Shown here piece by piece: positions 12,366-32,129 of a stretch of DNA of 64,000 nt. The stretch spans positions 124,001 to 188,000 of the forward strand of contig NZ_QQRR01000003.1 of the NCBI RefSeq assembly GCF_003439925.1, written 5' to 3'. The notes below the pieces were generated by a model. It had not been told where the DNA came from and did no database searches. It saw nothing but the letters and a program-made list of their open reading frames with translations. The translations under genes were made by a program, and so were the position numbers. The DNA is from Haloprofundus halophilus. GTDB lineage: Archaea > Halobacteriota > Halobacteria > Halobacteriales > Haloferacaceae. Each line of letters begins with the position of its first letter. The first letter of the stretch is position 1.

Positions 12366-13103
12366 ATGGACTCTGAGGACAATATTACCCGGCGACGCGC
12401 CCTCGTCGCCGGCGGAGCCACGGTCGCGTTCGGCGGCGGTGTCGCGTATCTCGCGACCCGTTCGGGTTCGGGCGGCCGAGAGTACGTTCCGTCGTCGTTC
12501 GCGACGAACGATTCGACGACCGGGTACGGCGTCGAACTCGCCGGGCGTCCGGTTGCGGGCGACTCCGACGCTCAGGTCGACATCTACTACTGGACCGACT
12601 ACCTCTGTCCGTTCTGCAAACGATTCGAGACGGAGACGCTCCCCAAAATCGGTGCGAACTACATCGACGACGGGACGGTGAGGCTCGTCTCGCTTCTGTA
12701 CCCGAACATCGGCGAGTACTCGATGCCGGCGGCGGTCTGGAGTCGCTGCGTCTGGCGGCAGGTCGCCGACGACGACCCGAGCGTCTTCTGGAACTGGCAC
12801 GGCGCCGCGTTCGAGGCGCAGTCGGAGTCCGGAGACGACTGGGCGAACGAGGAGACGTTCGACCGCATCACCAGACAGACGGATGGCGTCTCGGTCGACG
12901 CCGTCCGCGACTGCCGCGAGACGCGCAGCGACGCGATGCGCGAGACGGTCAGCGTCGACGTCGACACCGCCCGGTCCTCGGACATCCAGGGGACACCGGG
13001 CTTCGTCCTCTACAACCGGAAGTCGGACACGGCGGGAAAGATGGTCGGTGCTCACCCGTACGAGACGTTCTCGAAGGCGATAGACCGAGTACGAGACGCA
13101 TGA
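12366..13103 (+). CDS. DsbA-like thiol-disulfide oxidoreductase, Tat-exported
   Basis: 245 aa. The N-terminus has a Tat-type motif TRRRALVAGG followed by a hydrophobic stretch (about 8-32), so it should act at the outer face of the membrane. The thioredoxin fold contains CPFC at 81-84 and the cis-Pro loop QGTPGF near 210. Further cysteines occur in SRCVWRQ and RDCRETR. DsbA-like proteins oxidise or isomerise disulfides in secreted proteins. It is the first of three genes joined by ATGA overlaps, the other two being membrane proteins with cysteine pairs. Confidence 0.87.
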   Translation: MDSEDNITRRRALVAGGATVAFGGGVAYLATRSGSGGREYVPSSFATNDSTTGYGVELAGRPVAGDSDAQVDIYYWTDYLCPFCKRFETETLPKIGANYIDDGTVRLVSLLYPNIGEYSMPAAVWSRCVWRQVADDDPSVFWNWHGAAFEAQSESGDDWANEETFDRITRQTDGVSVDAVRDCRETRSDAMRETVSVDVDTARSSDIQGTPGFVLYNRKSDTAGKMVGAHPYETFSKAIDRVRDA

Positions 13104-13666
13104 ACGACTACCGAACTGCCGTCGGCGACTGGTTCCGTCGGTTTCGGCGCGCGCTCGCGTACCCGCTCACTTCGTACGCGCGACTGCTGACCGCCGCCGT
13201 CGCGACCGGCGCCACCTACGTCGTACTGGTCTTGAGCACGTTCCCGCAGTTTTCGCTCCAGATACTCGCAAATTCGCCGTCGAGGCTCGTCTACGCGGTG
13301 GTCGCGCTGACGCGAGAGAGCTACCTGAGTGCGGGGGGAGTCGGTATCAGTCTCCTCGTCGCGTACGCGCTCTTGACCGGCATCGCGGTGACCAACGCCG
13401 TCGCGCTCGTCCGGCGGGCGCGTCGCGCGAGCGTCGAAACGCTCGCCGGGGTCGTTCCTGGACTGCTCGCCGCCGGCTGTGCGACCTGCGGCGCGGGCGT
13501 TCTCGGCGCGCTCGGGTTCGTCGGAGCGATGGCCGTCCTCCCGTTCGACGGGAATCTCCTCAGAGTCGAGGGAATACTGCTGTTGGCGTTCTTCCTCGGG
13601 CGAGCGGGCGACCCTCGGACGTGCTCGATATCGTCGACGGCTCGCGGCGAGGCGGGAGTCGAATGA
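13100..13666 (+). CDS. Membrane protein with intramembrane CATC motif
   Basis: 188 aa with about four membrane segments: near 30-58, 75-100, 115-145 and 150-165. The third begins with AAGCATCGAG, a Cys-X-X-Cys inside the bilayer, and a further Cys is in GDPRTCS near the end. Its ATG overlaps the stop of the DsbA-like gene. I do not recognise a named family with known function. The context suggests it passes electrons to or from the DsbA-like protein, as DsbB, VKOR or CcdA do, or that it handles a thiophilic metal. Confidence 0.75.
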   Translation: MNDYRTAVGDWFRRFRRALAYPLTSYARLLTAAVATGATYVVLVLSTFPQFSLQILANSPSRLVYAVVALTRESYLSAGGVGISLLVAYALLTGIAVTNAVALVRRARRASVETLAGVVPGLLAAGCATCGAGVLGALGFVGAMAVLPFDGNLLRVEGILLLAFFLGRAGDPRTCSISSTARGEAGVE

Positions 13667-14079
13667 CGGCCTTGACTCGACGCCGAGTCGCCACGAGTAT
13701 CGGCGTCGCCGTCGGTGCCTTCCTGTTGTTCGGCGCCGTCACCGGTCTCTTACCGAACCCAGTCTACGTCAGGATGGTCCCGAGTACGCCGCTGGACTAC
13801 CTCTTCCTGCTCACGACCGCCGTCTTCGCGGGTGCGTTCGTCTACCAGCGAGCCACCATCGAGGAACCCGTCGGCGACCGAGTCGCCGGCGGCGGACTCG
13901 TGGTCGGGTTTCTGGCGTTCGGCTGCCCGGTCTGCAACGTCGTACTGCTCACGCTGTTCGGTTCGTCCACGCTCATGACGTTCTTCGACCCGCTGCGTCC
14001 GGTACTCGGCGCCGCGAGTGTCGTCCTCCTCGGTGGACTCCTCTACTACCGGCGAAGAACTACCTGCGGGGCCTGTTGA
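13663..14079 (+). CDS. Membrane protein with CPVC motif and C-terminal Cys pair
   Basis: 138 aa. Membrane segments lie near 8-30, 38-58, 68-95 and 100-128. FGCPVCN near 85-92 holds a thioredoxin-like CPVC at the start of the third hydrophobic stretch, and the chain ends TTCGAC, a second Cys pair. The start ATG overlaps the previous stop (GAATGA), so translation is coupled to the CATC protein. Upstream in-frame codons exist but lie inside that gene. No known family is recognised; a membrane thiol relay is an inference. Confidence 0.72.
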   Translation: MTALTRRRVATSIGVAVGAFLLFGAVTGLLPNPVYVRMVPSTPLDYLFLLTTAVFAGAFVYQRATIEEPVGDRVAGGGLVVGFLAFGCPVCNVVLLTLFGSSTLMTFFDPLRPVLGAASVVLLGGLLYYRRRTTCGAC

Positions 14080-14235: not shown

Positions 14236-14243
14236 CTATTTAT
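14236..14243 (+). promoter_or_regulatory. TATA box of the crcB operon
   Basis: TATTTATC is about 30-35 bp before the first paired bases of the fluoride riboswitch. A transcript starting about 26 bp downstream (near 14266) would carry the whole aptamer as its 5' leader. Confidence 0.5.
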
Positions 14244-14271
14244 CACCCCGAACGAGATTCGTGTCCACACC

Positions 14272-14328
14272 TCGGGCGATGGAGTCTGCCCGACCCAACC
14301 GCCGACCGCGTCGGCCGACGACTCCTCC
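14272..14328 (+). ncRNA. Fluoride riboswitch (crcB motif RNA)
   Basis: The segment matches the crcB motif. P1 is GGGC (14274-14277) with GCCC (14288-14291), enclosing GATGGAGTCT. The pseudoknot is GGAGTC (14281-14286) with GACTCC (14320-14325). P2 is GCCGA (14301-14305) with TCGGC (14311-14315). The landmark GATGG, AACCGCC and ACTCCT elements are in consensus order and spacing. It ends about 16 nt before the ATG of the first crcB, so fluoride binding probably raises expression of the exporter at initiation or early elongation. Fit and context make this a confident call. Confidence 0.88.
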
Positions 14329-14343
14329 TCGCCAGCGTCGTCC

Positions 14344-14739
14344 ATGTCAGAGACTACTCGCCATCCGCTCGTCCGACTCGAATCGCTCGCACTCGTCGCA
14401 ATCGGGGGGTTCGCCGGGTCGAACCTCCGGTACTTCGCCGACCTCGTCCTCCCTGGTCTGGTCGGGACGCTCGTCGTCAACGCCGTCGGCAGCGCGGTTC
14501 TCGGGTTTGTTCTCTACGAGAAACTGTATTCGGGCATCTTGACGAAGGAGACTCGCACCGTCGTCTCGACGGGCTTTCTCTCCTCGTTCACCACCTACAG
14601 CACGTTCGCGCTCCAGTCGGCGCAGGCCCCGCCGCTGTGGCTCGTCGCGAACGTCGTCGCCAACTACGCGCTCGGGTTCGCCGGTGTGCTCGTCGGGCGG
14701 CGGACCGCTCGGGTCGTCGACCGGCGGTGGTCGCGTTGA
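14344..14739 (+). CDS. crcB1: Fluoride efflux protein CrcB/FluC, first copy
   Basis: 131 aa, four membrane helices, the normal size of a Fluc subunit. Family motifs: GGFAGSNLRYF near 20-30, LVVNAVGSAVLGF near 42-54 with the pore Asn, and STGFLSSFTTYSTFALQ near 75-91 with the Phe/Thr track. Fluc channels are dual-topology dimers that let F- leave the cell. It directly follows a fluoride riboswitch and overlaps a second crcB gene. Confidence 0.93.
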   Translation: MSETTRHPLVRLESLALVAIGGFAGSNLRYFADLVLPGLVGTLVVNAVGSAVLGFVLYEKLYSGILTKETRTVVSTGFLSSFTTYSTFALQSAQAPPLWLVANVVANYALGFAGVLVGRRTARVVDRRWSR

Positions 14740-15098
14740 TCGAGTTCGACCCCGCACACGTCGTCGGTACCGGCGGAGCCGTCGGCGCGCTCCTCCGACA
14801 GTACGTCGGCCGCCTCGTGGAGTCAGACGAGTTCCCGCTGGGAACGCTCGCCGTGAACGTACTCGGAACGTTTCTTCTCGGATTCGTGACGTTTCTGGGC
14901 GTGGACTCGACGACGCTGCTGCTGCTCGGAACGGGCGTCTGCGGGTCGTTCACGACGTTCTCCTCGTTCTCCGTCCAGACCGTCCGGCTCTGGGAGACGG
15001 GTGACCGTCTCCGGGCGGTCGTAAACGCCGGTGCGAACCTGCTCGGTGCGGGGCTCGCACTCGGCGTCGCGTGGGGCCTCGCTCAAGTGCTCGTCTGA
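14727..15098 (+). CDS. crcB2: Fluoride efflux protein CrcB/FluC, second copy
   Basis: About 123 aa, four helices. GTGGAVGALLRQYVGR, LAVNVLGTFLLGFVTFLG and GVCGSFTTFSSFSVQT are the Fluc motifs. No ATG is available: the start is GTG 14727 or TTG 14736, and the TTG overlaps the crcB1 stop as TTGA. Either choice overlaps crcB1, so the two subunits are made together. Paired, non-identical Fluc genes usually form an obligate heterodimer with opposite topologies. Confidence 0.9.
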   Translation: MVALIEFDPAHVVGTGGAVGALLRQYVGRLVESDEFPLGTLAVNVLGTFLLGFVTFLGVDSTTLLLLGTGVCGSFTTFSSFSVQTVRLWETGDRLRAVVNAGANLLGAGLALGVAWGLAQVLV

Positions 15099-31418: not shown

Positions 31419-32129
31419 TCAGTCGTTCAACTGCGCGTTGTCGAACGGGTCCGACGGCAGACGGAGTTCGTCGAGTCCGGGGAGGTTCTTCACGTTGTAC
31501 ACGACTTTCATCTCGTCGGTGACGGGTGCGCTGATGCAGGAGAGTTGGATGCCGCTGTCGGTCATCGACGACGGGAGGATGTGGTTCGACGGCATCTCGA
31601 CGGCCCCGTCGACGACGGCGATGGCGCAGTTCGCACACGCGCCCCCGCGACAGGAGTACGGCCAGGAGAAGCCGCGGCTCTCGGCGGCTTCGAGGATGTT
31701 CTCCCTCGGTTGCGCGAAGAACCGACCGTAATCGTCGGGCGCGAGGTCGGCCTCAGAGGCCTTCTCGAACAGGTCGTCGTCGTCGATCTGCCACCCGTGG
31801 TCGGCGAGCACCTCGTAGTTGAGAAACTCGATTTTCGACCCCGACTCTTCGGGTTCTGCCGCTTCAGGACCGGGGGGCGAGGGGTCCTCCGGGGGCTCCG
31901 CCTCGGAAGCGGTTTCGCGCTCGCCGGAGTCGTCCGCCGACGCGACTTCGAGTTCGGCGTCGGTGTTGCCCGCCATCACCTGCCGATAGGCGGTGTACAC
32001 CAACTGGAACTCCCTCGCGGAGCCGCCGTGGTCGGGATGAGCCTCCTTCACCCGGCGCCGGTACGCACGCTCGATTTCTTCGTCGTCCGCGTCCGGGTCG
32101 ACCGCTAAAACATCGAACGGGGATGCCAC
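31419..32129 (-). CDS. [2Fe-2S] ferredoxin fused to a J-domain
   Basis: 236 aa. Residues 3-65 are a DnaJ-type J-domain with the HPD motif (KEAHPDHGG) and no G/F or zinc region. An acidic linker (about 80-120) follows. The plant-type ferredoxin domain has YSCRGGACANCAIAV with three ligands and LSCISAP with the fourth. The fusion would link a cluster carrier to a DnaK-like chaperone. The start is GTG 32129: a TTTATAC box lies about 27 bp upstream, and no ATG fits. Confidence 0.85.
   Translation of the reverse strand: MASPFDVLAVDPDADDEEIERAYRRRVKEAHPDHGGSAREFQLVYTAYRQVMAGNTDAELEVASADDSGERETASEAEPPEDPSPPGPEAAEPEESGSKIEFLNYEVLADHGWQIDDDDLFEKASEADLAPDDYGRFFAQPRENILEAAESRGFSWPYSCRGGACANCAIAVVDGAVEMPSNHILPSSMTDSGIQLSCISAPVTDEMKVVYNVKNLPGLDELRLPSDPFDNAQLND

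Follow-up and report, generated by a model that had tools for sequence, protein, structure and literature searches.

The crcB motif has been known from both bacteria and archaea since 2010 (Weinberg et al., PMC2864571). In fluoride riboswitches, the pocket for the ion is held by a pseudoknot together with a reverse Watson-Crick and a reverse Hoogsteen pair (PMC8004769), and A40-U48 is the linchpin pair (PMC8752731). Natural riboswitches have barely been tested in archaea: a 2021 paper (PMC8241225) names one case, the fluoride riboswitch of Thermococcus kodakarensis, as the sole natural riboswitch of archaea to have been established experimentally, and its control is presumably translational. 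Translational control via structured leaders is held to be untypical of haloarchaea (Haloferax study, PMC4983044), and our search of the open-access literature turned up no paper on fluoride riboswitches of haloarchaea.

Here we describe a locus in 64,000 nucleotides of DNA from Haloprofundus halophilus (the window, that is, the whole stretch that was analysed), for which a fluoride riboswitch leader before overlapping crcB genes had been predicted. The RNA class is already known; the expression platform that we suggest for haloarchaea, which abuts the start codon, is a new proposal and is put forward as a hypothesis. The features of the locus, all on the plus strand, are as follows.

14237-14243, plus strand: TATA box (TATTTAT), read from the sequence
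14273-14326, plus strand: predicted fluoride (crcB) riboswitch aptamer
14275-14290, plus strand: P1 hairpin (14275-14278 with 14287-14290), 99.2% of cells paired, innermost pair exchanged between G-C and A-U
14281-14286, plus strand: pseudoknot 5′ strand, GGAGUC, 100% paired, two pairs changed on both sides
14301-14315, plus strand: P3 hairpin (GCCG 14301-14304 with CGGC 14312-14315, extending to 14306/14310), 97.7% paired, two pairs changed on both sides
14316-14319, plus strand: changed junction CGAC (consensus UGAU) from the alignment, with U38C at 14316 and U41C at 14319
14320-14325, plus strand: pseudoknot 3′ strand, GACUCC, from the covariation alignment, followed by U14326 (the U48 linchpin position)
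14317-14342, plus strand: proposed OFF hairpin just 5′ of the AUG (GACGAC 14317-14322 with GUCGUC 14337-14342), present in the MFE and centroid folds
14344-14739, plus strand: crcB1, fluoride channel subunit, 131 aa, ATG start
14736-15098, plus strand: crcB2, fluoride channel subunit, 120 aa, TTG start at 14736-14738

The predicted aptamer and its distribution

The Rfam model RF01734 aligns along all of its 64 positions to 14266-14334 in the leader, scoring 29.5 bits with a genome-wide E of 4.7e-6, and this is the sole RF01734 match in the genome. The original prediction had named this Infernal search as its check and a score below threshold as its refutation; taken literally, that is the outcome, because the gathering cut-off of RF01734 is 34 bits and a search at that threshold returns no match in the window. 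However, the cut-off is a choice of the Rfam curators and not a structural feature, and many clear haloarchaeal orthologues also lie under it. We rely on R1, a clade covariance model from 30 aligned haloarchaeal aptamers that excludes the genus of the window. R1 scores the aptamer at 65.6 bits (E 4.4e-20 genome-wide), with the next match in the genome at ~24 bits, and it scores the orthologous leaders of two sister species at 71.6 and 75.7 bits. R1 also matches the window at 31925-31982 (minus strand, 14.7 bits); we rejected this match, its score being in the chance range.

Across 33 aligned sequences, P1, P3, and the pseudoknot are paired in 99.1% of cells and all covary: changes on both sides of a pair occur in 30 cells vs 8.4 in shuffles (0 of 500 shuffles reached this number), and pairing falls to 32-58% when the pairing partners are slid. 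The pseudoknot is seen as GGAGUC/GACUCC, GGCGUC/GACGCC, and GGGGCC/GGUCCC in the alignment, and U14326 is invariant in the aptamer alignment (A2). That the element might be no riboswitch, but a chance match in G+C-rich sequence, could draw on the Rfam score; the R1 scores of the window and of the sister leaders, the gap to the next match in the genome, the covariation, and the placement before crcB in dozens of genera all oppose it, and we exclude it on the covariation and on the R1 searches of the window and genomes, leaving it a negligible probability. The prediction of a riboswitch leader is upheld by the same R1 score and covariation, and its GGAGTC/GACTCC pseudoknot is present where the two strands are listed above; the claim that every consensus element is present was wrong, in that the near-universal CUGAUG is CCGACG here. 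By sequence and predicted structure, 14273-14326 is a fluoride riboswitch aptamer.

With RF01734, the element is detected in 18 of the 170 genomes of the window's family and in 66 of the 391 genomes of the class; with R1 the class count rises to as many as 143, with matches below ~30 bits probably due to chance. Haloarchaeal genomes with the element seem to number on the order of a hundred in this one sample of 391. The aptamers of family f4 have a long, variable P3 (with a loop of up to tens of nucleotides) and the GGGGCC/GGUCCC pseudoknot; RF01734 underscores or misses these loci (L041-type, e.g., L048, L053, L065, L190, and L202) because the length of the P3 loop varies widely, and R1 recovers many more of them.

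Several variants were seen along the way. Within the genus, two sister species (G080 and G082) have the crcB pair without the riboswitch. One leader (L213, from G321) has P1 and both pseudoknot strands before the crcB start and no P3, and looks like a remnant; two others (L189 and L206) are also degenerate leaders before crcB-like starts, and the three possibly form a decay series of riboswitches. Two loci, L019 (G016:C2:46753-46822) and L020 (G040:C36:89647-89716), have a second aptamer ~415 nt upstream of that of crcB1; the ORF behind it (~68-72 aa) has the look of a membrane protein and no convincing Pfam match, and may possibly encode a new fluoride-regulated small protein. In the same phylum, outside the haloarchaea, eight RF01734 matches lie within ~12 kb of a single contig (G762:C16, ~70000-82100).

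The crcB gene pair and its surroundings

Both genes match PF02537 over the whole domain (crcB1, 67 bits; crcB2, 86.2 bits; cut-off 32.9), both products match solved CrcB chains in the PDB (E 7e-5 for crcB1), and crcB2 is also above the cut-off of TIGR00494; these are the only CrcB matches in the genome. The prediction that the second subunit lacks an ATG and overlaps the first held up: there is no ATG near the expected start of crcB2, where the codon is TTG, and this TTG overlaps the stop codon of crcB1 (TGA) by 4 nt. At the same position, the RefSeq annotation of pMHR1-3 (the plasmid of Haloprofundus sp. MHR1) and of H. salinisoli has GTG. In H. salinisoli and H. marisrubri the start reads GTG ATG, with ATG as the codon after the start; in the window and pMHR1-3 that codon is ATC.

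Compared with the two sister species that have the riboswitch, dN/dS is 0.19-0.20 for crcB1 and 0.14-0.17 for crcB2, and therefore both proteins are maintained by purifying selection. Of 60 relatives searched, nearly all have two CrcB matches. The overlap and the co-conservation support a paired exporter; the obligate dependence that was originally predicted is a possible, stronger reading of the same two features.

The window is part of a Haloprofundus megaplasmid, two 24-kb pieces of it being 98.2% identical to pMHR1-3; riboswitch-bearing crcB pairs are also plasmid-borne in H. salinisoli and in Halorubrum sp. BOL3-1. Upstream of the leader (12366-14079) are a gene for a DsbA/thioredoxin-like protein and two overlapping genes for small membrane-like proteins with cysteine motifs (CATCGAG and CPVC), the latter two without a Pfam or NCBIfam match; these genes are kept in pMHR1-3 and do not adjoin crcB in H. 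salinisoli. A cytochrome P450 gene (15196-16542) is located 3′ of crcB2 in the window, in pMHR1-3, and in H. salinisoli; a functional tie to fluoride is not evident.

Leader, junction, and start codon

The leader lies between the TATA box and the ATG of crcB1 at 14344, as had been predicted. In two sister leaders (L010 and L011) the TATA box occupies the same place, 37-38 nt before the aptamer, and across 73 loci the A+T content peaks 31-39 nt upstream of the aptamer; by the usual rule of thumb, the TATA box predicts a transcription start at ~14264-14268. The linker between the pseudoknot and the start codon is 9-25 nt long in 68 haloarchaeal leaders and 9-20 nt in all but one of these. It is 18 nt in the window, so the short spacing that had been described is right and its length of about 16 nt is not. 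From the short linker and the position of the A+T peak it follows that the aptamer occupies nearly the entire leader. We found no terminator-like site in the linker of the window, in agreement with the original prediction of no terminator stem between the aptamer and crcB1; runs of four U occur in 6 of the 68 linkers and runs of five in none, and the linker of the window has neither. A scan for bacterial-type promoters found nothing, as expected for an archaeon, and an SD-like GGAG is present in only 5 of the 68 linkers.

Many haloarchaeal linkers are complementary to the 3′ strand of their aptamer, with the complementary bases placed against the start codon. For example, in L022 CAUCAGCC, before or into the AUG, pairs with GGCUGAUG; in L048, L068, and L075 GUCAGCC-AUG pairs with GGCUGAC; in L004 and L005 GAGUCAU, which overlaps the AUG, pairs with AUGACUC; and in L013 CCAUCC-AUG pairs with GAUGG. 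In 25 dissimilar leaders the best-helix score is 13.5 vs 11.0 for shuffled linkers (z 5.1; 0 of 1000 shuffles) and vs 11.5 (z 3.8) for the starts of 205 other genes, these being ORF starts from the loci examined, with the first ATG taken as the start. The best helix touches positions −3 to +2 in 76% of leaders (33% when shuffled) and overlaps the U38-U41 junction in 80%; because it uses junction bases in most leaders, it excludes the ligand-bound fold. The predicted gain in start-site accessibility under a two-state folding model is 0.127 vs 0.024 for shuffled linkers (z 5.4; 38 leaders). At the level of the group, these results support sequestration of the start region in one of two mutually exclusive folds; about one third of the leaders have no convincing helix. 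Linkers swapped across types score 12.8, almost like the 13.5 of the leaders' own linkers, and we make no claim that the OFF helix covaries. The comparison of crcB1 leaders with and without the riboswitch (MWU p 0.09-0.19) is underpowered, its negative set is contaminated by misparsed riboswitch leaders, and it is given no weight here.

In the window, the hairpin GACGAC/GUCGUC (−6.1 kcal/mol) takes the place of GAUGAC/GUCAUC (−4.7 kcal/mol) in the sisters, that is, compared with both sisters, U41C comes with a matching A to G change in the partner strand. Between the junction and the start codon, the window differs from both sisters alike at six positions, always toward G+C, and the seeming compensation may therefore have arisen by chance. 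The hairpin of the window taken alone is not significant (p 0.07 by shuffling; p 0.13 against gene starts), its predicted gain in accessibility is small (0.03), and the MFE fold of the leader, calculated without the pseudoknot, is no stabler than shuffles (z −0.47).

We take the U38/U41 numbering of the junction bases to be that of the Thermotoga petrophila structure, in which U38 is presumably a member of the reverse Watson-Crick pair. Position 38 is U in 67 of the 68 haloarchaeal leaders tabulated and C only in the window, whereas position 41 is divided between U (35 leaders) and C (33 leaders); of 26 archaeal loci from outside the haloarchaea, ten were amenable to parsing, and these all have U at both positions. 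The window retains A40, U48, and the rest of the pocket bases, and H. marisrubri (G081) and H. salinisoli (G083) keep both U38 and U41. The leader of pMHR1-3 has both changes and differs at one of 114 nt (14296), so U38C and U41C are not sequencing errors of one assembly.

How a haloarchaeal riboswitch would act without a terminator had been raised as a question by the original prediction. A reasonable answer from the comparison of leaders is that the 3′ strand of the aptamer competes with the bases at the start codon, that is, that control is translational. Without fluoride, GACGAC, from the junction and the pseudoknot strand of the aptamer, would pair with GUCGUC just before the AUG and hinder access of the ribosome. 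Fluoride and Mg2+ would lock the GGAGUC/GACUCC pseudoknot, leaving GUCGUC and the AUG single-stranded, and crcB1 would be translated; translation of crcB2 could follow via the stop/start overlap. The direction of control (ON with fluoride) is suggested by the role of the exporter and by the riboswitch class, and the simplest reading would be an ON switch at the level of translation, in which the start region itself is what is masked. We consider it reasonably probable that the element is a riboswitch in the ~75-nt leader of a crcB1-crcB2 mRNA and acts on translation. With less confidence, we tentatively extend this to a compact translational platform shared by the haloarchaeal fluoride riboswitches, in which no Shine-Dalgarno sequence is masked and the 3′ junction/pseudoknot strand of the aptamer pairs with bases that touch the start codon, and which in Haloprofundus would have been retuned by U38C, U41C, and the matching change in the start strand; we offer the start-abutting platform as a hypothesis, supported statistically at the level of the group.

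Two other explanations bear on this reading. The riboswitch could act on transcription, with early termination in the leader that is averted when the aptamer binds fluoride, or on mRNA decay; most of the bacterial fluoride riboswitches that have been studied control termination (PMC11077080, PMC13273304), and UUUU directly follows the aptamer in some haloarchaeal linkers (e.g., L009, L030, and L036). The rarity of such U runs and their lack in the window, where no terminator-like site was found, argue against this explanation, as does a spacing of 9-25 nt, which leaves little room for a separate terminator; it also leaves the complementarity that abuts the start unexplained, and we regard it as unlikely.

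Somewhat less unlikely, and a live alternative, is that the aptamer of the window is weakened, decaying, or retuned; U38C and U41C would then reduce or abolish the binding of fluoride, and expression of the crcB pair would be constitutive or would respond at another threshold. The otherwise invariant U38, the loss of the response in Bacillus cereus when U41 is changed to A (PMC11077080), the two sister species with the crcB pair and no riboswitch, and the remnant elsewhere (L213) all favor it. C41, however, is normal in family f4 and therefore must be tolerated; P1, P3, the pseudoknot, A40, and U48 are intact; and the crcB genes are under purifying selection. The near-identity of the pMHR1-3 leader also speaks against decay, although it says little, since divergence over the entire plasmid is just 1.8%. 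In the Haloprofundus lineage, binding may plausibly be weaker or its threshold shifted, and either is compatible with the translational switch that we prefer; the natural U38C variant offers a test of an otherwise invariant base.

Comparison with described systems

Since about a hundred haloarchaeal genomes seem to carry the element, it is a natural switch that can be tested in genetically tractable organisms. It might also serve as a fluoride-inducible tool for expression in halophiles, and it would exemplify an RNA that senses its ligand at molar salt. With the RF01734 class the window shares P1, P3, the pseudoknot, the conserved pocket bases, and a location in the 5′ leader of crcB; it differs in U38C and U41C, in a score under the Rfam cut-off, and in having no terminator. 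The haloarchaeal crcB1-crcB2 pairs (CrcB/Fluc, PF02537) likewise are two adjoining CrcB genes; a minority of these pairs have a riboswitch, and the crcB2 of the window differs by its TTG start.

The bacterial fluoride riboswitches that act on translation, those of B. pseudomallei and P. syringae (controls in PMC13273304; compared here by description), are of the same aptamer class and also lack a terminator; they serve bacterial initiation, in contrast to the haloarchaeal linkers with their few SD-like sequences. The T. kodakarensis riboswitch (Speed et al. 2018), as it is described in the 2021 paper that cites it (PMC8241225), is likewise archaeal, with TATA/TBP transcription and presumed translational control. 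The T. kodakarensis RNA is upstream of TK0513 and not directly before crcB (PMC4247193), and its host is a hyperthermophile, whereas the leader described here directly precedes a crcB pair in a halophile.
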